DNA of 64,000 nt. Origin: Ornithodoros turicata. Its lineage: Eukaryota; Arthropoda; Arachnida; Ixodida; Argasidae. The notes beneath the pieces are model-generated. The model searched no databases, was not told where the DNA came from, and worked only from the letters and a program-made list of their open reading frames with translations. Positions 54,481 to 63,836 of the stretch are shown here, in pieces (position 1 is the first letter of the stretch; every line of letters starts with the position of its first letter). The stretch covers positions 4,357,947 to 4,421,946 of the forward strand of contig NC_088209.1 in assembly GCF_037126465.1 (NCBI RefSeq), written 5' to 3'. The position numbers were made by a program, and so were the translations under genes.

Positions 54481-54486
54481 TAGCAC
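54481..54486. repeat. Target-site duplication, left copy (TAGCAC)
   Basis: The same six bases follow the right end of the element at 63831-63836. Six-base duplications are characteristic of Polinton/Maverick integration. Confidence 0.92.
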
Positions 54487-55637
54487 AGTAGTAAGTACTG
54501 ACCACGTTTATCCGGAAACGCACATCTTCGTCTGGACGCCATTAATTAGCAATTAGAGCTAATTGGGACCCCCCATATTAATCAGCACCCTCCAGGGAGC
54601 CATCACACTAATTGGGGAATGTCTATCTCGCGTCCAGACCAGTTGTGCGTTTCCGGATAATCGTGGTCATAAAAAATAAAAAAATAGGCAGAAAATAAAA
54701 TAAAAAGGTAAAAATAGAGTGGTGAGAAACAATTTATTCGAAAATCAACGATGCCGCGGCGAAGAAGCCGCTCCGCAACACCCGAGTGACCAGCGTCCGC
54801 CATGTTGGTAGTTTGCACCCAGCAGTTGCAGAGATCGACGACAGGTGGCCACTTAGTTGCAAGGCATCACACAAGATGGCGCCACCATCATAGCTCTAGA
54901 CGAGAAAGACAGAACAAGATACTAGCGGCAGGTAAAAATGGTAGCACTGCTGAACAAGTCTAGGCATGCGAGAGAAAAGGTCTAACCGCTACTGCTAAAC
55001 AGAAAACAGTACTCATCGGGGAAAAAGGCTTACGGGGACGATCGCTTAGGCCTAACCACAACACTACGCAGCTAACACAAGGCGGGAACCTCACATCGCT
55101 AAACATGCGTCAACAGGCTTGCTCACCGCAAAACAAGTCTAAACATACGAGGAAAAAGGCTTACGGGGGGACGATCGCTTAGGCCTAACCTCAACACTAC
55201 GCAGCTAACACAAGGCGGGAACCACACATCGCTAAACATGCGCCAACAGGCTTGGACACCGCAAAACAAGTCTAAACATGCGAGAAAAGGCTTAGCACGA
55301 GCGCGGTCACCGCTAAACACGGCAAACATACGAGAAAAGGAGCGCGTCAAATCACTCACCTTTTTCCCCGCGGCAACTTCCAGGCAGAAACTGAGTGAGC
55401 GCGAAGAACACACGTCTGCTCTCTACGAGAGCCAGCCAGAAACTGAGCGAGCGCGCGGAGCGCACGTCCGTCTTCCGCGACAGTCCGAGAGAAACTGAGT
55501 GAGGCGACGCGCCGCGGCAGTTATGGATGCGCGCGCGCCCTCTGCTCCACCCGTCCGCGCATGCGCGCGCGCGCTGCTAGCTCCCTCTGCGCCGGCCGCG
55601 GGTGTTTTCGGTTTCGGCTCTCTGATGCGCGCGCGCA
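54487..55637 (+). repeat. Polinton left inverted terminal repeat
   Basis: Matches the reverse complement of 62680-63830 throughout, with scattered substitutions (for example CATATTAATCAG against CACATTAATTAG near 54575). The inner edge is at the CG-dinucleotide run (TGCGCGCGCGC). It contains an imperfect 131-bp direct duplication (55022-55152 and 55153-55283), three copies of a 52-bp CAGTTTCT unit, and, pointing outward on the minus strand, a splice donor (GGTGAGTGATTT, GT at 55358-55359). Confidence 0.93.
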
Positions 55638-55645
55638 TTCAAGTA

Positions 55646-56678
55646 TCAAGGATTCATGTACTTGTGGTATCTAACATGCAGGTTTGGTTTGCTCCTCAAA
55701 GGATGTAAGAGTGCCAGCACGCTATACTTGAAACACTCGTTTTCGTGATTCGGTGGAAGTTTGACGTTTGTGAGAGTCTTTGTTTTTGTCTTTAGCAGCT
55801 CGGGAAGCTCGATCGTGCATCCAATCCGCTTCGGTTTTAAGTGCGTTAGTTTTAAGTCGACACATTGGACGTCGCTCGAGGTGAAACCAGACCCTTCTCT
55901 CGCATAGTTTTCAACGCGTTGCGAGGACTCTGCGATGGCAGCATTTATCGCGCCTTCGATTTCTTGGCGGTTATGAACGACTCTCATGTGAAGGTTCACG
56001 TGAAGGAGATGAGAAGTCAACCCGTCGGCTCCGTCCTTAACCATGAGCGCCTTCGAGCACAGACAAAATTTGAAAGGCATGGGATAAGCTTCGAGGACGC
56101 GCGTGATTACTGGAGCTATGCTCGGTAGATAGAGTCGCAAATCGTCGACGTTGTCGTCGTGCGGGGAACAGAGAAGCGTGTACCTAGTAGCTGTTCCGTC
56201 AAATGCCTCATCTGTGACAAAAAAAGGAAGGAATCGTCTCTCCGTGACGGAGGGATGATTCTCTACGACGTGTTCTCTCAATTCAACGATTCTACGACCC
56301 TGGACAGGCTCAGCTTCGTTTCGAAATTCTGGGCTTGCATCTGGTGATTCATCTCGAACCCTACCAGACAGAGGAATGAAATCTGCATACGACTGATCCC
56401 CTTCCCACATGAACAATTCGTCTGCATTGTCATGTCCATCTAGGGGTTCGTCGTCGTCCGTTTCAGGTATTACGAAAGGCGGACTACTGTCTCTGTCGTC
56501 GTCGTCGTCATCTGAAAGGACGACTGGGCTATTACCGAGATTCTCTATTCTAGCTTCGTGCTCTCTTTCTACGGCCACGAGCGTGGCATCGATGGGGTCG
56601 TACTGACATACGAGACAGCGCGGCACTGCGGTCAAACAAAATCAGTACGAGATTCCCCCTCACGAAACAATGCTCACT
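55646..56678 (-). CDS. Acidic protein ending in a PolB-type N-terminal block (truncated)
   Basis: Minus-strand gene with splice signals upstream. Acceptor GACCGCAG|TG at 56626/56625; the preceding small exon (56774-56678) ends GGGAAAA before GTGAGC, so joining forms ATG from A(56678)+TG(56625-56624). That gives 326 codons starting MPRCLVCQYDP; the uninterrupted frame otherwise only begins with TTG. The product has Asp/Glu-rich stretches (SDDDDDDRDSS), a Cys/His patch (FCLCSK...HLLHVNLHMRVVH) and near the end NECFKYSVLALLHP with RYHKY. As I recall it, that C-F-x-y-S/C-v-l-a-x-L-h-P...Y-x-x-Y block is the N-terminal conserved part of Polinton-type polymerase polyproteins. The frame stops at 55646, a few bases before the terminal repeat. 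I infer that a deletion removed the polymerase itself. Confidence 0.65.
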
Positions 56679-56925
56679 TTTCCCTTCAGTTGAGGAACGC
56701 TTGAGATTGATGATGAGAGAGGATGGGATGAGTTCCTGTGTTCAGTGTCATGCGGTGACAGCGGCTATCGGTTCCTGAAAAACAATGTCATACATAGAAT
56801 ACACTCTCACAGCAGAGACGGTCAACTTACATTTTGCTCCACGAAACGCTTCGTGTCGTGGATGGATGCCCCTCGTGGGCTTCCTGTCAATCGTCGTAGA
56901 ACCAGCGCACCTTTTATAGTCGCTA
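56672..56925 (-). promoter_or_regulatory. TATA promoter and spliced leader region of the acidic gene
   Basis: TATAAAAG on the minus strand at 56911-56918, then a leader ending GAGCAAAAT|GTAAGT (donor GT at 56829-56830), an acceptor TTGTTTTTCAG ending at 56775, and a second donor GTGAGC from 56677. All sites match consensus well. None of the leader exons has a usable open frame, so they would be untranslated up to the start codon formed at the last junction. Confidence 0.55.
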
Positions 56926-57097
56926 CACCGCTCTCCTCCTCCTCGCATTGCGACGGTGTCGTCTGTACTTTGACCACCCCGCCTTCCGTCTTTCGCGCCT
57001 TTTTGCGATGTCGCATATGACAATGATAATACCATCGACGTTGAATAAAACATTACACTAATTTCTAGCTAACACTCTGGGACGACTTGTACATGAC

Positions 57098-57175
57098 CAC
57101 AAGAAGACCCAGAGTGGGATTCGAACCCAGGATCCTTCTACACTGGGCGCGACACACTAACCACCAATCTAATTC
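57098..57175 (-). mobile_element. tRNA-derived SINE-like head inside the Polinton
   Basis: On the minus strand GGTGGTTAGTGTGTCGCGCC (A-box-like) precedes GGATCCTGGGTTCGAATCCC, with the B box GGTTCGAATCC at 57118-57128. Flanking CCAGAGTGGGAT pairs partly with sequence nearby. It is too irregular for a functional tRNA, so a SINE or tRNA relic is more likely. It sits between the promoter of the acidic gene and the motif array of the four-exon gene. Confidence 0.5.
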
Positions 57176-57219
57176 GTACTGCGTGACGTTTTTCGTATTG
57201 CGGGGTTCGTGTCTACACA

Positions 57220-57396
57220 CATCCAAACATGTTCAGACACGTCCAAACATGTTCAGACACGTTCAATGACGTCATCAAGAGGAAGAGAGAGGAACGAGTG
57301 TGTCCAGGGGCGACTTCGACGGTTCGCCGCCCGTGTCCGAACATGTTCAAACACGTCTTAACATGTTCAAACACGTTCAATGACGTCATAGAGAGT
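57220..57396. promoter_or_regulatory. Array of p53-half-site-like decamers and CRE palindromes
   Basis: Two related blocks about 114 bp apart. Decamers of RRRCATGYYY type: AAACATGTTC at 57225-57234 and 57245-57254, GAACATGTTC at 57339-57348, and TAACATGTTC (one mismatch) at 57359-57368. They alternate with (A)GACACGT(C/T)C-type versions at a 20-bp period. Each block ends with a CRE palindrome TGACGTCA (57267-57274, 57381-57388). A third CRE lies at 57488-57495 and a fourth at 60302-60309. The array is just upstream of the four-exon gene. Binding by p53-family or CREB/ATF factors is inference from motif shape. Confidence 0.55.
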
Positions 57397-57418
57397 GAGA
57401 GGCAAAGCTTTACTATAA

Positions 57419-58106
57419 ATGTCGAAGCGAATGGTCGATCGTCATTCCATCATGATCAGCTTGGTAGATCCTCGTAAGTAATACCCATGACGTCATCATC
57501 GCCGAAATGTTTGAAGAGTTTCGTTTCCAGTGTACAACACTTTTGCTGCGCGTGAAGTCGGTTTTTTCCCGCCTCACATATTTCGGGAGATTGGCAGCGC
57601 CCGCTTCTTCTGCACCAATTGCGGTGGATTGTGGTCCAAAGGTACGCTTCCTCGTTATTTTTTTTAATACGTTCTATAATCGTTCACATTTTTTCAGAGC
57701 AAAAGCATTGGACGGACCGATTGATTCGCCCGTTTCTCGGCTGTCGGACGGTACCGTTCGACGTACGTTGCGAAGGACTTCGACTATTGAAGGAAGATGG
57801 AGAAGATGGACCATCAGTGTCACTCTGTGACTGAAGAAGATTTTACGTGTGTGTTTGAGTTAAAAAAAAAAAACACGCGTTTCTCACACTCCTTTCGTTG
57901 CAGATTACGAATGGCTACTGGGAGATCTACCCCTGGTCCTAACCTTCAAGCCTCCTCCAAAGACGTTCTTTTTGCGAATCGGCGATCAACTGACTACCTG
58001 TCGTTGCGGTGGACTCTGGTCGAGAAACCCCAGCCATTGGTTAGACTCGAGCCTTCGTCCGTATTTGGGCTGCCTTCCCGGCTACGAAACCAAAGCTGGA
58101 GCCTAA
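57419..58106 (+). CDS. Four-exon gene, duplicated C-G-G-L-W module protein (165 aa)
   Basis: Exons 57419-57473, 57531-57641, 57698-57826 and 57904-58106 total 498 nt and close one frame from ATG to TAA. All three introns are phase 1 with GT..AG ends (GTAAGT, GTACGC and a weaker GTGACT), and AATAAA follows at about 58124. The product holds two copies of a module that are alike across introns: F-x-P-P...F-x-(R/E)-x-I-G...C-x1-2-C-G-G-L-W-S-(K/R)...H-W-x-D...R-P-(F/Y)-L-G-C. The same pattern emerging independently from exons 2-3 and exon 4 is strong support for the splicing. The C-x2-C-G-G core with downstream W and C recalls BIR (inhibitor-of-apoptosis) domains, but the zinc His is absent and spacing differs, so no function is assigned. 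Confidence 0.7.
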
Positions 58107-58160
58107 TTCATGTGTAACGAGAAATAAAAAAAGGTTGTCTACTCTCATTCCGTCTCAGTC

Positions 58161-58553
58161 ATGATGACGCCCGAGCAGAGGTTTGCCACCTTTGTGCAAA
58201 CGCGAAAGTATCGGGACTTGCTGCGATTACGCGATTATATTCACGGCGATAGCGGCGAGGGAGACTTTCGCTCGATTCTCAAGACGATACCCTTACGTCT
58301 GTTCACCGTCAGTGGGAAGATTGCAAAGAAAATGAAGCGTTTCGTAGATTACAAGCTCGAGCTGTTGGAAAAGTATAGACGAGGAGAGACAGTCGACCCG
58401 TGTCTCATCAACGCGGGTTTCAACCGACCTATCGTCCGTCGCTACCGGCTTCTCCACACATCCCTCGACGTCACGGTGCAGACCGGCGACGACGGTGAGC
58501 GTCGGGTCAGCACGTTGGAAGATCGTCTCGCAAGGGTCTTGTGTATGTCGTGA
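58161..58553 (+). CDS. Hypothetical basic Polinton protein (130 aa)
   Basis: ATG at 58161 lies two bases after a good splice acceptor (TCATTCCGTCTCAG), so an untranslated upstream exon is possible. The product is basic and helical in character: LRLRDYIHGDSGEGDFRSIL, KKMKRFVDYKLELLEKYRRG, RRYRLLHTSLDV. No membrane segment or metal motif. AATAAATATA follows the stop (58556). It converges with the protease gene, 20 bp stop to stop. Function unknown; a small DNA-binding or virion core protein would fit but is a guess. Confidence 0.75.
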   Translation: MMTPEQRFATFVQTRKYRDLLRLRDYIHGDSGEGDFRSILKTIPLRLFTVSGKIAKKMKRFVDYKLELLEKYRRGETVDPCLINAGFNRPIVRRYRLLHTSLDVTVQTGDDGERRVSTLEDRLARVLCMS

Positions 58554-58573
58554 AAAAATAAATATACTATTTT

Positions 58574-59014
58574 TTACGAAACGAGTTCGCTCACGAGGAG
58601 ACGTTTTATTGTTTCGTCATTCTCTTCGAGGTTACAGGAAAACATGGATACACAACTTTTCAAGCTGTAGCGTTTCCACATGCGCGTGGCTACGTAGATA
58701 CAAAAAAGCCCGCAGTAAGGCGAAAAGGGTGATTGAATACACTTGTCGTTATACTCGTCCACTACAGGTAAAGTCTTTCGAAGGTTTGCTTCGATGGGGG
58801 GAAGTCCGTAGCTGTCGAAAAACACGGCAGACCCGTCGTAGTTTTTCAGGTAGAGCACCCAGTGCTGCCCGCGTCTTCTTCGCTCTCCGGTATTGATGAT
58901 TAAATAGCCGGGTTTGCGTAAAACGAAGGCTTCGTCGGAAGCGCAAATGCCTCTCAGCATGGAGGAAGCGAGGGGGTTCAGGGACACGAGTTCCAAGATG
59001 TCGCTCTCGTACAT
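58574..59014 (-). CDS. PRO: Adenain-type cysteine protease (maturation protease)
   Basis: 146 residues. Catalytic pattern of adenovirus-type/Ulp1-fold proteases in order: His51 in QHWVLYL, Asp67 in VFFDSYG, Gln94 in CIQSPFSPY and Cys101 in YCGLFCIYVA. In Polintons and adenoviruses this enzyme cleaves capsid precursors at particle maturation. The length is somewhat short, since N-terminal sequence before the His is only 50 residues. ATG at 59014 is 6 bp downstream of the capsid gene stop, so the two may share a transcript. All catalytic residues are present. Confidence 0.9.
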   Translation of the reverse strand: MYESDILELVSLNPLASSMLRGICASDEAFVLRKPGYLIINTGERRRRGQHWVLYLKNYDGSAVFFDSYGLPPIEANLRKTLPVVDEYNDKCIQSPFSPYCGLFCIYVATRMWKRYSLKSCVSMFSCNLEENDETIKRLLVSELVS

Positions 59015-59020
59015 CTTTTC

Positions 59021-60310
59021 TTATGGGAAGGTGACCGTACGGTCCTTGTCGACGTACATGAGCTTGGGACACTCGGAAATCAAGAGGACGGTGACCGCGT
59101 GTGGAAGGGCTTTAGCGAAGCGTAATTGCAGGCGAACGTTTCCTTTTCGCCACTCGTTCAAATGCGAAGGAGAAGAACACTTGTCCACGTCCAAGTTAAA
59201 GTAGAGAAGGAACCCGTTCGTTTTAAATCGCTCGTAGCTATACTTGAAATGTTTCTCTCCCAGTTCTTGCAAGAAGTTAAAGTAGGGAATTTTGACGAGG
59301 TCGTTCTGAAAGTCGTACTCGGCTCGCACTTGCTGGCCGTCCACGGAGAGCATCGAATGAGACAGGTCGTAATGGCGGAATTTGTAGGGGTTCGATTGGA
59401 TGTCGCCGAGAAAGTCGGACGTGGCGAGCAGGGCGACGCATAATTTGGAAGGCACCCTTTCGGGGTAAACGTTTTCAAAGTGAGCGTCCAAGCTCCCGGC
59501 ACTCAAGCTCCGCACCTTGGTTTCCAATCCGCGTAACACGTAGATGGCCGGCGTGGTCTGAAGCCGCCGCTCGTATTCCAAAAATAGGGAACGTGCCAGC
59601 GTCACCTTTTTCAAGTGTAACGTCATTTCTTCAATGTCCACCTGGTAATTGTACGTTTTCTTGTCTTTGGGGACCGATACGAGTTTAAATTCGTCGTTGT
59701 TTAATAGGAAAACGACGCGAATTTCGACGGCAGGTACCATCAGGCGCGGCTGTTGAAACAAGTCGGTATTGATCTGACCGACCAGGTTAAAGTATTTGCC
59801 ACCCTTCGTCGCTTCGTAACGTTGTTTCGGACCGCGAGGCGAGACGTCGTAATCGTCCTTTAAATGTTCGTCGTCCTCGACATAAAGTCCAGCCGCGTGC
59901 ACTGTTTCTTGAGCCATGGGCGTAGAATGAAGCACGACGTCCAAAATACTCCTGTAGGCGTACAACTCGTTGGAACTGACGAGCTTGTTGTTCGCATAAA
60001 CGGTGACCGTCTTAAACATGCCGCTCAACAGGTGGTTTATTGGGAAAACGACATCTTTCTCGTCCATTTCTTCCCCGTCGTCGCGAACAATGCGCACGGT
60101 CAAAGACACGAAACTGCCGTAGAGATCCAAGTGTGCCCTTTGCAAATTTTGAATACAAAACTCGATCACGGAATTATTTACCCCGTTGACCGGATAAAGA
60201 AGTTGGTACGAAGTATCTTCCACGCCGTATTGAATGGAAGGGGGTTCGAATATGATCACATCACTCGTTAGACAGATCGGCGTCTGTATTTTTCCTTTCA
60301 TTGACGTCAT
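59021..60310 (-). CDS. Major-capsid-like protein (F54H12.2-like family)
   Basis: 429 residues, uninterrupted. From memory it follows the pattern of the invertebrate family annotated 'F54H12.2-like': L-x-G-Q-I-x-x-D-L-F-x-Q near residues 165-175, a V-x-I-R-V-V-F-L-L strand, K-K-V near 235, F-L-G-D-I-Q-S-N-P-Y-K-F-R-H-Y-D near 300 and G-N-V-R-L-Q-L-R-F-A near 400. Length, high beta content and position beside protease, penton-like and ATPase genes fit a double jelly-roll major capsid protein. It is shorter than classical Polinton capsids (over 550). ATG at 60310 overlaps the ATG of the plus-strand two-exon gene and lies in a TGACGTCATGACG motif. Confidence 0.75.
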   Translation of the reverse strand: MTSMKGKIQTPICLTSDVIIFEPPSIQYGVEDTSYQLLYPVNGVNNSVIEFCIQNLQRAHLDLYGSFVSLTVRIVRDDGEEMDEKDVVFPINHLLSGMFKTVTVYANNKLVSSNELYAYRSILDVVLHSTPMAQETVHAAGLYVEDDEHLKDDYDVSPRGPKQRYEATKGGKYFNLVGQINTDLFQQPRLMVPAVEIRVVFLLNNDEFKLVSVPKDKKTYNYQVDIEEMTLHLKKVTLARSLFLEYERRLQTTPAIYVLRGLETKVRSLSAGSLDAHFENVYPERVPSKLCVALLATSDFLGDIQSNPYKFRHYDLSHSMLSVDGQQVRAEYDFQNDLVKIPYFNFLQELGEKHFKYSYERFKTNGFLLYFNLDVDKCSSPSHLNEWRKGNVRLQLRFAKALPHAVTVLLISECPKLMYVDKDRTVTFP

Positions 60311-60692
60311 GACGGAGCGCGCGCAGCGGATGTGTGACCTTCACGGCGTACCAAAGATATCTGCAGGTGCGTCGTGTGTCGGCGCCTTTTGTTGTCTTTT
60401 GCGGCGTTTCTTTCCATTGTTGTTGTTTCCAGAGCCCTACATGGAATCCAGCACGTCTCTCCCCGTTGCTATGGCTGTCTTTTTTACTGCGCGCGATATT
60501 CCTTCGCCATCGGCCAAATTCCGCGCCAAGCGCTTCAACGTTCTCTTGGCGATCGGTTTTATTTGCTACCAGATGGGAACGATAAACTTGGATATGTTGC
60601 TCAACACACCGCCCCCTCGTTGGAAAAGGGGTCCCGTGTACACGGGAATTATTTTGGGGGAATTACGGTACATATTTGAAATGCAACGTTAG
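60309..60692 (+). CDS. Two-exon small protein (105 aa), unknown
   Basis: Exon 1 60309-60366 (donor GCAG|GTGCGT), intron 66 bp, exon 2 60433-60692 (acceptor TTGTTGTTTCCAG). The 318 nt close one frame from ATG to TAG; the intron is phase 1 like those of the four-exon gene. The product has a basic patch (KFRAKRF) followed by a hydrophobic stretch (NVLLAIGFICYQMG), possibly membrane-associated, then a Pro-rich loop and RGPVYTGIILGELRY. It overlaps the penton-like gene by 30 bp at its 3' end. It fills what would otherwise be the only long gap in the structural cluster. No family recognised. Confidence 0.6.
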   Translation: MTERAQRMCDLHGVPKISAGASCVGAFCCLLRRFFPLLLFPEPYMESSTSLPVAMAVFFTARDIPSPSAKFRAKRFNVLLAIGFICYQMGTINLDMLLNTPPPRWKRGPVYTGIILGELRYIFEMQR

Positions 60693-61514
60693 ATTGGTTC
60701 TGCCTTTGGACCGCAACGGCAAACGTCTTCCCGTTTCGTCCGCGAGAACGATCGTCACTGAAGGAATTTCGAATTGAGACAGGTTAAAATACTGGATGTT
60801 ATCTAACGTGTAGGTGACGACGTGCTTGTCTTTCTCGTAATAAAAGGGTAGTATTTTTAATATAGGTTTTTTCCCGCTCCCCACGTACGTGGGTTCCACG
60901 ATATCCGTGTAGACGATTATGTTGTGAAACGGGGGTTCCAGGAGTACCTCGACGGAGCTCGTGGCATCCTCCCCCGTAAACACGGTACGCGATTCGAAGC
61001 CCAAAAGCACGGCCAGGTACTCGGAAAGTCTTAGGGTGGAGGTGCCCTCGGAAAGTCGAATTTTACATTTCTGTTCGGTTCCGTCGAAGCTGAAGCGCGC
61101 GCGTTCGCCTACGCGCTGGTTAATCGCATTTAGAAGTGCTTGTGGCGTCGCATAATAGCCGGGAGGCAGATGTACTTGCAAAGATCGAGGAATTTTCGTC
61201 TTGATCGTGAAAGAAAATTGACGCGCTACGGGGAGAGAGACGCGTAGCGTTTCTTCGTGTCCCTCGACGGGTGTGAGATGTAGCAGCTTGACAAAGGGTT
61301 CCGGTACGTGCAACCCTTTCGGTGTTTTCAGAGAGTAGAAGTTATCCGCGAATTCTAGCGAGGCGTCCAGCTTGTGCGTCTGGAAATACTTGTTGAGTGT
61401 GTTCCGTAGGGACGTGGTTTCCGAATTCAGAGTGATGTCGCCGAAAGCGACGGGTGCGGCGTGCTCCAATAAGATGAAGGTGGCTTCGCGTTCGCTCAAT
61501 TTGGGAGGTTTCAT
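60663..61514 (-). CDS. Penton-like minor capsid protein
   Basis: 283 residues from ATG at 61514 (MKPPKLSEREATF). The frame is open further upstream, but that part overlaps the ATPase gene out of frame, so the internal Met after the ATPase stop is preferred. The motif LPPGYYATPQALLNAINQ near residue 130 (G-Y-Y-x-x-x-x-x-L-x-x-x-I/V-N) recurs in single jelly-roll penton homologues of Polintons and related viruses. The rest is beta-rich (LRLSEYLAVLLGF; FHNIIVYTDIVEPTYVGSGK, typical near the C-terminus of these proteins). It would form the capsid vertices. Confidence 0.75.
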   Translation of the reverse strand: MKPPKLSEREATFILLEHAAPVAFGDITLNSETTSLRNTLNKYFQTHKLDASLEFADNFYSLKTPKGLHVPEPFVKLLHLTPVEGHEETLRVSLPVARQFSFTIKTKIPRSLQVHLPPGYYATPQALLNAINQRVGERARFSFDGTEQKCKIRLSEGTSTLRLSEYLAVLLGFESRTVFTGEDATSSVEVLLEPPFHNIIVYTDIVEPTYVGSGKKPILKILPFYYEKDKHVVTYTLDNIQYFNLSQFEIPSVTIVLADETGRRLPLRSKGRTNLTLHFKYVP

Positions 61515-61572
61515 CGGCGTGGAGGGGGTAGAGTGGAGAGTACTTTGAGTAAAGTGAGGTGAGGGCGGAGAT

Positions 61573-62208
61573 TCATTTCGGAGCGTAGATATATTGACGT
61601 TCTCCCGGAAAGGTATTGCTACGCAACCTGTGATCCTCGTGCGTATAGTTGTGGAGATCCACGAGTAAATATGCGTGGGGCGACGACATCGCTTGTTTAT
61701 ATGCGTCCAGAAAATACTCCAATCTTTTTCTGCCAAATAGCTGTTGGCCGAAATGTTCCATCTGGTGCACGCTGCGCACGGTGCGCCACAGGACGACGTA
61801 ACTGGCGTTGTAGGATATTGTTCTAAAATGGCTACTGTCGAAAAAGATGTTTTGAACGAGTAAGAAGATCGACGCGTTGGCGTGGTGAGAACCCCGAATG
61901 AAAAGATCGGTCACCTCCTTCAAGGAACCGGCGTCGGTCATGTGATCGTCGACGATGATCAGCGTAGCGCGCGACGTGTCCCACTCTCGCAGTAGCTCCT
62001 TGGTAAATTTTACGGAGTCCCCGAATTCGTCCTGCATGCTCGGCGAAGCATATTTCTGCACGTAGAATATTTGTGACGGAGGCTTGTCTACCACGTCGTT
62101 CAGGTTCCTCAACACGTTAGCAATGAAAGTAGATTTGCCGCACATGGAGGGGCCGCTTAAGATACAGCGAAAGGGATGACGGAAACGAAAAGGTTCGGGG
62201 GAAGACAT
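61573..62208 (-). CDS. ATP: Genome-packaging ATPase (A32/FtsK-HerA type)
   Basis: 211 residues from ATG at 62208; a GTG five codons upstream is in frame but is not a credible eukaryotic start. Walker A GPSMCGKST at residues 19-27, Walker B ATLIIVDD at about 81-88, and LLVQNIFF with a polar residue after the strand (sensor-like) near 120. In the poxvirus A32/Polinton family this enzyme pumps genomic DNA into the capsid. Length is typical for Polinton ATPases. The stop lies 58 bp upstream of the penton-like start. Confidence 0.9.
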   Translation of the reverse strand: MSSPEPFRFRHPFRCILSGPSMCGKSTFIANVLRNLNDVVDKPPSQIFYVQKYASPSMQDEFGDSVKFTKELLREWDTSRATLIIVDDHMTDAGSLKEVTDLFIRGSHHANASIFLLVQNIFFDSSHFRTISYNASYVVLWRTVRSVHQMEHFGQQLFGRKRLEYFLDAYKQAMSSPHAYLLVDLHNYTHEDHRLRSNTFPGERQYIYAPK

Positions 62209-62278
62209 GTTGCGTGCGTACACGTTGCACGAAGAAAAAGAAGAGACTGAGACTCGAAGAGAAATGCATCGCTTTTAT

Positions 62279-62554
62279 TTACACATCCTCGTCGTCGTCC
62301 TCTACATCGGAACTGCGTTCCCAATACAGATTGTCCAGGCTAAAGTTGGACTTCTTTTTCGCCAGTCTGTCCGCCGCTAAGATGCGGTCGAGCGTCTTCA
62401 TCTTGTCCTGACACATTTCTTGACGTGCTTGCAACCATTCCAGACGGTGGACTTGAAAGGCTTCCTCCACGATGCCGCGTATAAATTCGCGAAGTTCTTC
62501 GTTTTTTGTCTTTTCCTTGCGACGACGAGAAGCGCAGGAGAATAAACCACACAT
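62279..62554 (-). CDS. Small charged protein with Cys/basic N-terminus (91 aa)
   Basis: ATG at 62554 (MCGLFSCASRRRKEK); the frame opens at a GTG upstream that is not used. The N-terminus combines two Cys with a basic cluster, as in palmitoylated membrane-associated proteins. The middle is predicted helical and charged, and the C-terminus is acidic (SSDVEDDDEDV). TATAAAGG on the minus strand at 62607-62614 lies about 50 bp upstream and may drive the whole minus-strand cluster. Function unknown. Confidence 0.7.
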   Translation of the reverse strand: MCGLFSCASRRRKEKTKNEELREFIRGIVEEAFQVHRLEWLQARQEMCQDKMKTLDRILAADRLAKKKSNFSLDNLYWERSSDVEDDDEDV

Positions 62555-62606
62555 GGCGTTTTCCACGTATCGGTCAGAATGATGACGCGAGCGCGGTGCG
62601 CGCTGC

Positions 62607-62614
62607 CTTTATAG
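62607..62614 (-). promoter_or_regulatory. TATA box upstream of the leftward Polinton cluster
   Basis: TATAAAGG on the minus strand, about 53 bp before the first ATG (62554), placing a start site near 62580. It is the only clear TATA upstream of the ATPase, penton, capsid and protease genes. Between it and the terminal repeat (62615-62679) is CG-alternating DNA. Confidence 0.6.
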
Positions 62615-62679
62615 AGATAAACGCGCGCGCAAAGAAACGAAAGTGAAACTCAGAAGCCACCCGTCGCGGCTAGGAGCGC

Positions 62680-63830
62680 GCGCGCGCGCGCAGCAGAGAG
62701 CCGAAACCGAAAACACCCGCGGCCGGAGCAGAGGGAGCTAGCAGCGCGCGCGCGCATGCGCGGACGGGTGGAGCAGAGGGCGCGCGCGCATCCATAACTG
62801 CCGCGGCGCGTCGCCTCACTCAGTTTCTCTCGGACTGTCGCGGAAGACGGACGTGCGCTCCGCGCGCTCGCTCAGTTTCTGGCTGGCTCTCGTAGAGAGC
62901 AGACGTGTGTTCTCCGCGCTCGCACAGTTTCTGCCTGGAAGTTGCCGCGGGGGAAAAGGTGAGTGATTTGACGCGCTCCTTTTCTCGTATGTTTGCCGTG
63001 TTTAGCGGTGACCGCGCTCGTGCTAAGCCTTTTCTCGCATGTTTAGACTTGTTTTGCGGTGTCCAAGCCTGTTGACGCATGTTTAGCGATGTGTGGTTCC
63101 CGCCTTGTGTTAGCTGCGTAGTGTTGAGGTTAGGCCTAAGCGATCGCCCCCCCGTAAGCCTTTTTCCTCGTATGTTTAGACTTGTTTTGCGGTGAGCAAG
63201 CCTGTTGACGCATGTTTAGCGATGTGAGGTTCCCGCCTTGTGTTAGCTGCGTAGTGTTGTGGTTAGGCCTAAGCGATCGTCCCCGTAAGCCTTTTTCCCC
63301 GATGTGTACTGTTTTCTGTTTAGCAGTAGCGGTTAGACCTTTTCTCTCGCATGCCTAGACTTGTTCAGCAGTGCTACCATTTTTACCTGCCGCTAGTATC
63401 TTGTTCTGTCTTTCTCGTCTAGAGCTATGATGGTGGCGCCATCTGGTGTGATGCCTTGCAACTAAGTGGCCACCTGTCGTCGATCTCTGCAACTGCTGGG
63501 TGCAAACTACCAACATGGCGGACGCTGGTCACTCGGGTGTTGCGGAGCGGCTTCTTCGCCGCGGCATCGTTGATTTTCAAATAAATTGTTTCTCTCCACT
63601 CTATTTTTACCTTTTTATTTTATTTTCTGCCTATTTTTTATTTTTTATGACCACGATTATCCGGCAACGCACAACTGGTCTGGACGCGAGATAGACATTC
63701 CCCAATTAGTCTGATGGCTCCCTGGAGGGTGCTAATTAATGTGGGGGGTCCCAATTAGCTCTAATTGCTAATTAATGGCGTCCAGACGAAGATGTGCGTT
63801 TCCGGATAAACGTGGTCAGTACTTACTACT
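62680..63830 (-). repeat. Polinton right inverted terminal repeat
   Basis: Mirror of the left repeat. Three copies of a 52-bp unit start at 62821, 62873 and 62925 (each with CAGTTTCT), followed by GGGGAAAAGGTGAGTG with the donor GT at 62959-62960, then intron-like sequence containing TAGACTTGTTTTGCGGTG and GCATGTTTAGCGATGTG, each twice. AACATGGCGGACG (YY1-like) lies near 63512. The arrangement is that of an outward promoter, first exon and intron start. Confidence 0.93.
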
Positions 63831-63836
63831 TAGCAC
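63831..63836. repeat. Target-site duplication, right copy (TAGCAC)
   Basis: Identical to 54481-54486. The remaining flank to 64000 contains the 5' part of the split minus-strand frame (ATG at 63914) and nothing else recognised. Confidence 0.92.

Follow-up and report, generated by a model that had tools for sequence, protein, structure and literature searches.

A spliced Polinton gene with a tandem Cys/His module, preceded by predicted p53-response-element-like decamer arrays

PMC4323202 gives the human MDM2 RE1 as GGtCAAGTTC-AGACAcGTTC and ranks CATG as the strongest p53 core. Sites for p53 have also been described in mobile or repeated DNA, namely in Alu elements (PMC3032802) and in fuzzy tandem repeats (PMC3386156), the latter a tandem arrangement like the one reported here. 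In both cases, as described, those sites concern host genes, whereas the sites described below lie before a mobile element's own gene. What is new here is a set of predicted p53-response-element-like decamer arrays in front of a Polinton gene. No report of such a Polinton gene, or of a p53-linked Polinton, was found in the literature on Polintons/adintoviruses, p53 sites and apoptosis.

The gene lies in a Polinton insertion of 9344 bp (54487-63830), within a 64-kb window, which is the whole stretch of DNA analysed. The features of the locus, in window coordinates, are as follows.

54481..54486: left target-site duplication, TAGCAC
54487..55636, + strand: left terminal inverted repeat (TIR), starting AGTAGTAAG, delimited by self-alignment with the right arm
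55646..56635, - strand: PolB-like N-terminal piece, ending next to the TIR, named from a motif
57225..57264: distal p53-like array, an unbroken run of four RRRCAYGYYY decamers
57267..57274: CRE-like TGACGTCA, which recurs at 57381 and 57488
57339..57378: proximal p53-like array, another unbroken run of four decamers
57414..57419, + strand: TATA box TATAAA, read from the sequence
57419-57473, + strand: exon 1 as first drawn, its coding part most likely beginning at ATG 57452
57442..57447, + strand: inferred initiator-like TCATTC, with a predicted +1 at 57444
57474..57530, + strand: intron 1, 57 nt, phase 1
57531-57641, + strand: exon 2, start of module 1 (F-P-P .. C-T-N-C-G-G-L-W-S)
57642..57697, + strand: intron 2, 56 nt, phase 1
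57698-57826, + strand: exon 3, remainder of module 1 (H-W-x-D .. R-P-F-L-G-C) and an acidic linker
57827..57903, + strand: intron 3, 77 nt, phase 1
57904-58106, + strand: exon 4, module 2 (C-R-C-G-G-L-W-S .. H-W-L-D .. R-P-Y-L-G-C) and stop
58123..58128, + strand: poly(A) signal AATAAA, read from the sequence
58161..58553, + strand: 130-aa neighbour gene, on the same strand as the module gene
58574..59014, - strand: adenovirus-type protease (Peptidase_C5, PF00770), by Pfam
59021..60310, - strand: 429-aa protein, probable major capsid protein by resemblance
60663..61736, - strand: 357-aa protein without an assigned family
61573..62223, - strand: candidate A32/FtsK-like packaging ATPase (Pox_A32, under the Pfam cut-off)
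62682..63830, - strand: right TIR
63831..63836: right target-site duplication, TAGCAC

The original prediction placed the gene in a Polinton, an assignment supported by the long TIRs, the 6-bp duplication, the C5 protease and an rve match in the sister copy L102. The TIR arms are approximately 1.15 kb long, with 1133 of 1150 aligned columns identical, and TAGCAC flanks the element on both sides as a 6-bp target-site duplication. The Peptidase_C5 match has an E-value of 2.1e-5 and 24.8 bits, over the Pfam cut-off of 21.3; the ATPase candidate reaches 4.8e-4 and 20.1 bits with Pox_A32, below the cut-off of 22.8. We take the frame at 55646..56635 to be PolB-like from a motif, and the 429-aa frame to be a double jelly-roll major capsid candidate by resemblance. 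Pfam gave no match for the PolB-like pieces of the window and the sister copies, the capsid candidate matched nothing in Pfam, PDB or viral contigs, and ten further frames of the window had no Pfam match at E<=0.01. Both TIRs carry a 122-nt tandem duplication (55034-55288 and 63030-63284), and beside the right TIR there is a 108-aa frame on the - strand (62285-62608) with no convincing family. A tRNA-like B-box (GGATTCGAACCC) is present within the element at 57119-57130; ARAGORN found no tRNA in the whole window.

Comparison with sister copies, made in the same 1.07-Gb genome (379 contigs), indicates what the window copy has lost. The PolB-like gene stops at 55646-55649, with the TIR edge at 55636, and homology to the window breaks off at 55648-55651 in eight of the ten sister copies sampled, with different sequence beyond. 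In L092 and L093, the two that were read, the PolB frame continues past this break, with a frame break in L093. A plus-strand search of the right-hand regions of the ten sampled copies gave no match to the window element. Integrase frames are present in L102 and L103, the two of these ten regions that were read, and the L102 frame matches rve over the Pfam cut-off (E 1.2e-9). A tblastn search of the L102 integrase and the later L092 PolB frames against the window element gave no match. The view of the window element as a whole Polinton was rejected, as the integrase and most of PolB are missing; since both are present in sister copies, the window copy is best described as an internally deleted Polinton. 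Copies with integrase and PolB exist elsewhere in the genome.

The four-exon structure first proposed for the gene was recovered: the exons join into 498 nt, or 166 codons including the stop, across three GT..AG introns, all in phase 1. A DNA search with the gene gave at least 40 copies at 97-100% (the best 40 of 791 candidates). This set, the window copy and 39 others, holds the best-scoring copies, those nearest to the window, and is not a random sample. No copy has lost any of the six splice dinucleotides (40/40 intact). Codon positions 1, 2 and 3 carry 16, 14 and 69 substitutions (0.0024, 0.0021 and 0.0104 per site per copy), third positions changing 4-5 times as often as first or second. 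The introns are richer in changes and contain most length variants, with 0.0105, 0.019 and 0.022 substitutions per site per copy against 0.002-0.009 in exons. The frame is open in 33 of the 40 copies, counting L033, in which the upstream ATG at 57419 is lost; the seven broken copies comprise six with a 1-nt frameshift and one with a nonsense codon. Exon 4 of the window copy is one in-frame codon shorter than in 39/39 others. Among these young copies dN/dS is 0.67 by distinct variants, the kind of value that drift of most copies after insertion would give, and 0.14 by cells; otherwise invariant residues are altered in single copies, for instance L020, L025, L040, L041, L043 and L046. Read from the substitution pattern, the codon constraint implies purifying selection during the spread of the family, and we are almost certain that the spliced gene is real.

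Two genome motif scans, with 34 matches (1 in the control) and 18 matches (0 in the control), led to diverged relatives of the gene. The 20 loci taken from the first scan comprised 15 true relatives and five chance matches (L060, L061, L069, L073 and L077). Nine diverged copies were fully aligned, omitting the partial L063, L068 and L079 and the subfamily B copies L066, L072 and L078. In these nine the exons align and the intron lengths are free to vary; read by eye, the alignment retains 51 of 54 splice dinucleotides, with one lost in L070 and two in L071. With gapped and stop codons skipped, dN/dS against the reference copy L010 is 0.12-0.22 in six of the nine (L074 0.146, L065 0.122, L067 0.211, L070 0.219, L071 0.154 and L062 0.183), the remaining values being 0.089 (L076), 0.311 (L075) and 0.423 (L064). 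A stop interrupts the aligned frame in six of the nine, as expected of old copies.

Subfamily B has at least 40 copies (the best 40 of 279 candidates), with a single module in all 15 examined. Module 2 alone was found in L066, L072 and L078, and in 12/12 copies fetched later the pieces of module 1 match solely the module-2 place. The B module shares 54-68% identity with module 2. In L078 a relative of the 130-aa neighbour follows the module gene, positioned as in the window. Between subfamily A, with two modules, and subfamily B, module 2 has a dN of 0.26-0.36 with synonymous sites at or near saturation, which marks the module as old and constrained. The corresponding dN/dS values are 0.109 and 0.150, the third comparison being saturated and not computable, and module 2 of subfamily B against L074 gives 0.13-0.24. 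In L072, L078 and L080-L091, all of subfamily B, two unrelated upstream regions meet near one point, a pattern resembling promoter exchange, and in L066 (1600-2200) a Polinton terminal repeat abuts the B gene near the divergence point of the other B copies.

Regarding the translation start, the TATA box (57414-57419) overlaps the ATG at 57419, and TCATTC at 57442 lies 28 bp past the TATA box, at the usual initiator position. Nine distinct amino-acid-changing variants fall in codons 1-11 and 22 in codons 12-165 (Fisher p 8e-5), and upstream of ATG 57452 the diverged copies share little besides the TATA region. That ATG is common to them (MLS.., MIS.. or MLR..), with the exception of L070, which has a foreign 5' flank. 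Codons 1-11 are probably untranslated. Given the placement of the TATA box and initiator, the unconstrained codons 1-11 and the shared ATG, translation most likely starts at ATG 57452, for a predicted product of 154 aa in the window and 155 in the others.

That the two halves of the product repeat each other, as originally noticed, is evident from a BLOSUM62 score of 107, where the highest of 5000 shuffles reached 54 (z 18.7). The module pattern is C-x(1,2)-C-G-G-x-W-S-x4-H-W-x-D-x6-L-G-C. The elements P-P-x2-F, C-G-G-x-W-S, H-W-x-D and L-G-C are invariant in eight aligned modules from six copies; L071, outside this set, departs from the invariant residues. The zinc His had been reported as missing, which is true of the BIR position and not otherwise, as the H of H-W is invariant in the eight aligned modules. 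The C-x-C spacing noted for module 2 occurs in every open copy inspected, as well as in the diverged copies; the possibility that the window copy is simply wrong here was rejected, because other open copies carry C-x-C too. The C, C, H and C positions are kept in the aligned modules, the C-x-C of module 2 being an unusual spacing for a zinc knuckle pair. AlphaFold models of the product have a pLDDT of 46-47.

Searches for homologues gave little. Zn_ribbon_6 (E 0.014-0.039) and Dicer_N (E 0.03-0.11) were rejected, both lying under the cut-off and fitting one module only, and a PDB profile match (E 0.13) was judged spurious. PHROGs had no match for the product, a protein search of viral contigs with the product gave none, and protein database searches revealed no homologue. 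The motif pattern had 12 matches in viral contigs, in frames of 15-146 aa, in which the rest of the module was absent by eye. Relatives of the gene were found as diverged copies in the same genome, and none outside it in the libraries searched. Because of this absence of homologues outside the genome, no function can be borrowed. With no family match and with conserved Cys/His positions, the idea of a possibly new metal-binding module stands as a prediction. We consider it probable, from the conserved residues, that the module binds metal. The C-x(1,2)-C .. H .. C set would bind one zinc per module, and the product would be a compact two-headed binding protein.

The p53-like arrays lie between the divergent PolB-like gene and the module gene, in a shared intergenic region of approximately 500 bp. 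CATG and CACG cores alternate in the decamers of both, and TGACGTCA follows each array. Zero-spacer RRRCWWGYYY pairs with at most one mismatch occur four times in the 64-kb window, all within 57225-57358; all four 20-mers carry one mismatch, and the window has no perfect zero-spacer 20-mer. The shuffle averages are 0.015 for the element (200 shuffles), 0.0005 for the 484-bp region (2000) and 0.15 for the window (20). As the array region is a tandem repeat, whose sites are not independent, the consensus was also permuted, and 9 of 3000 permuted consensi were as good as that of p53. Among dyad-symmetric consensi, 11 of 5184 reached at least four, the best being near RRRCRYGYYY, one step off the textbook form; the CACG core, found in half of the decamers, is likewise one step from consensus. 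The site at 57245 reads AAACATGTTC-AGACACGTTC, and its AGACACGTTC half-site is the second half of human MDM2 RE1 as given in PMC4323202.

All 40 near-identical copies have these p53-like 20-mers, with 3-9 per copy. The sites are kept in the diverged L065, L067, L075 and L076, and in a two-mismatch form in L074; L064 has no homology left at the array place, and L062, L070 and L071 have foreign 5' flanks. The arrays are absent from all 15 subfamily B copies scanned. Genome-wide, RRRCATGYYYRRRCACGYYY, a pattern derived from the window, has 989 matches against 1 for the reversed control, and among the matches listed, four A copies in the listed stretch of C1 each adjoin RRRCATGYYYRRRCACGYYY sites. 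Perfect p53-type half-sites of the element fall mostly within the TIRs (8 of 12). Taken from these motifs, a promoter responsive to the p53 family is quite possible, if slightly short of the expected outcome, and it may instead be the divergent PolB-like gene that the arrays serve.

Alternatively, the arrays might be a neutral minisatellite with a chance likeness to p53 sites, before an ordinary, constitutively expressed gene. The copy number of the unit differs among copies, the surrounding 66-nt unit is repeated too, and 34 of 3000 permuted consensi match at least once, as a minisatellite would allow. Against it, the proximal array outlasts the divergence of the surrounding DNA in L065, L067, L074 and L076, and its minority bases are fewer at C4/G7 (7/312) than at W5W6 (11/312) or R/Y (61/936), counted in 39 anchored copies, with L022 set aside. 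All seven C4/G7 minority bases come from three copies with displaced or shortened arrays, L023, L030 and L046. The proximal array breaks the consensus at 78/312 W cells and 54/936 R/Y cells, and its commonest second decamer starts with T. We give the minisatellite some chance of being the right explanation, without expecting it to be.

A candidate for the host factor is present in the genome. PF00870 is found at 13 places; at seven the match spans almost the full domain within a single open frame. Four of these matches were read (L112-L115) and one was aligned, L114, which keeps the NRR and CACP-RDR stretches of human p53. At the position that we take to correspond to human R273, L114 has Lys; it also retains a tetramerisation-like tail. 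The seven near-full matches show no visible intron, and a LINE-like RNase H frame lies, by eye, alongside L115; on these two grounds the p53-family matches are likely to be retrogenes.

Under the reading that we prefer, this is a spliced accessory gene of an animal Polinton/Maverick, with its own TATA and initiator-like sites. A host p53 or p53-family factor would bind the arrays, which lie some 65-220 bp before the predicted transcription start. The gene would be induced once DNA damage or the replication of the element is sensed by the host cell, which would make it an early, stress-induced gene. The product may then act on cell-cycle, repair or death signalling, to the benefit of the element; an element copying its DNA in the nucleus would gain by blunting the host response. 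The parts of this proposal differ in strength. We lean slightly towards a real gene with a new, probable metal-binding module and some role in host interaction. The p53-like arrays are circumstantial evidence, motif-based, in favour of some role in a stress or death response; that the product acts on such a response, as predicted from sequence, is itself rather unlikely in our estimate. Equally improbable as it stands is the fullest version, in which p53 under stress or damage would induce an early two-headed metal-binding protein that disarms the host, and the spread of the element would have seeded most of the roughly one thousand sites of this type counted genome-wide.

The protein could also be a DNA/RNA-binding regulator, or a replication or packaging accessory, of the element itself, with the arrays binding a general host factor or a protein of the element. 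Small Cys/His modules commonly bind nucleic acid, the divergent PolB-like gene adjoins with the arrays in the shared 500-bp intergenic region, and the 130-aa neighbour is retained beside the gene in both subfamilies, all of which would suit such a role. However, nucleic-acid-binding families all stayed under the cut-off, no such Pfam family reaching it for the product, and permuted consensi fitted the arrays as well as that of p53 in only the 9 of 3000 cases. We regard this alternative as rather unlikely.

The original prediction described the modules as distantly BIR-like, and as strongly derived BIRs they would block caspases. The BIR (PF00653, IAP proteins) does resemble the module: module 1 begins C-x2-C-G-G and goes on to a Trp and a later Cys, both domains are small and the BIR is often tandem. 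In addition, BIR genes are plentiful in this genome, where a genome-wide search gave 64 BIR matches (121/121 candidates scored). Nevertheless, the kinship does not hold. Pfam BIR has no match to modules 1 and 2 at E<=10, in a program (HMMER) whose filters discard most matches above ~0.1. The BIR spacing is C-x2-C-x16-H-x6-C in eight BIRs of this genome (x5 in one), whereas the module has C-x(1,2)-C-x9-H-x11-C, which is not the BIR zinc site, and the N-terminal part of the BIR is absent. The nearest BIR match to any known gene place is 203 kb away, among 40 A, 40 B and 30 pattern-match gene places (two counted twice). Decisive is the profile comparison with hhalign, which gives 99.4% for BIR against BIR and 98.0% for module 1 against module 2, and 2.3%, over 21 columns, for the module profile against the eight same-genome BIRs. 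The module is thus very probably not a BIR, and its being a derived, caspase-blocking one is highly improbable. A large BIR/IAP expansion was observed in the genome, as a cluster at C4:69.4-71.0 Mb and on many small contigs, and a 99-aa BIR frame recurs in scattered copies that look mobile.

That there is no gene, open frames and splice sites having come together by chance, is favoured only by the lack of homologues and can be practically dismissed, being refuted by the codon constraint and opposed by the 40/40 splice dinucleotides, the half-to-half repeat and the dN/dS of the diverged copies.

The preferred reading has some wider meaning. Polintons gain a real, selected gene whose product matches no searched family, and codon constraint among sister copies can, even in the absence of RNA, back up the case for a spliced gene in a mobile element. 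Should the promoter respond to p53, the element would be coupled to the host damage response, and Polinton awakening would become a testable question.

In comparison with known systems, the element is like other Polinton/Maverick and adintovirus elements in its long TIRs, 6-bp duplication, C5 protease, ATPase candidate and the rve match in a sister copy. It is unlike Polinton/Maverick elements in that the window copy is without integrase and most of PolB, and in its two-module gene, unmatched in the libraries searched. Adenovirus E4orf6, which acts on p53 (PMC11071296), offers an analogy only: it is an accessory protein made early by viruses of a related lineage, and the module gene has no sequence match to it. 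The predicted sites share contiguous RRRC..GYYY decamers with the p53 response elements (MDM2 RE1, p21) in PMC4323202, and AAACATGTCC-CAACACGTTC of L074 is close to the p21 site as it appears there. Unlike those response elements, the sites predicted here are in the promoter of a Polinton gene, in tandem arrays of four.
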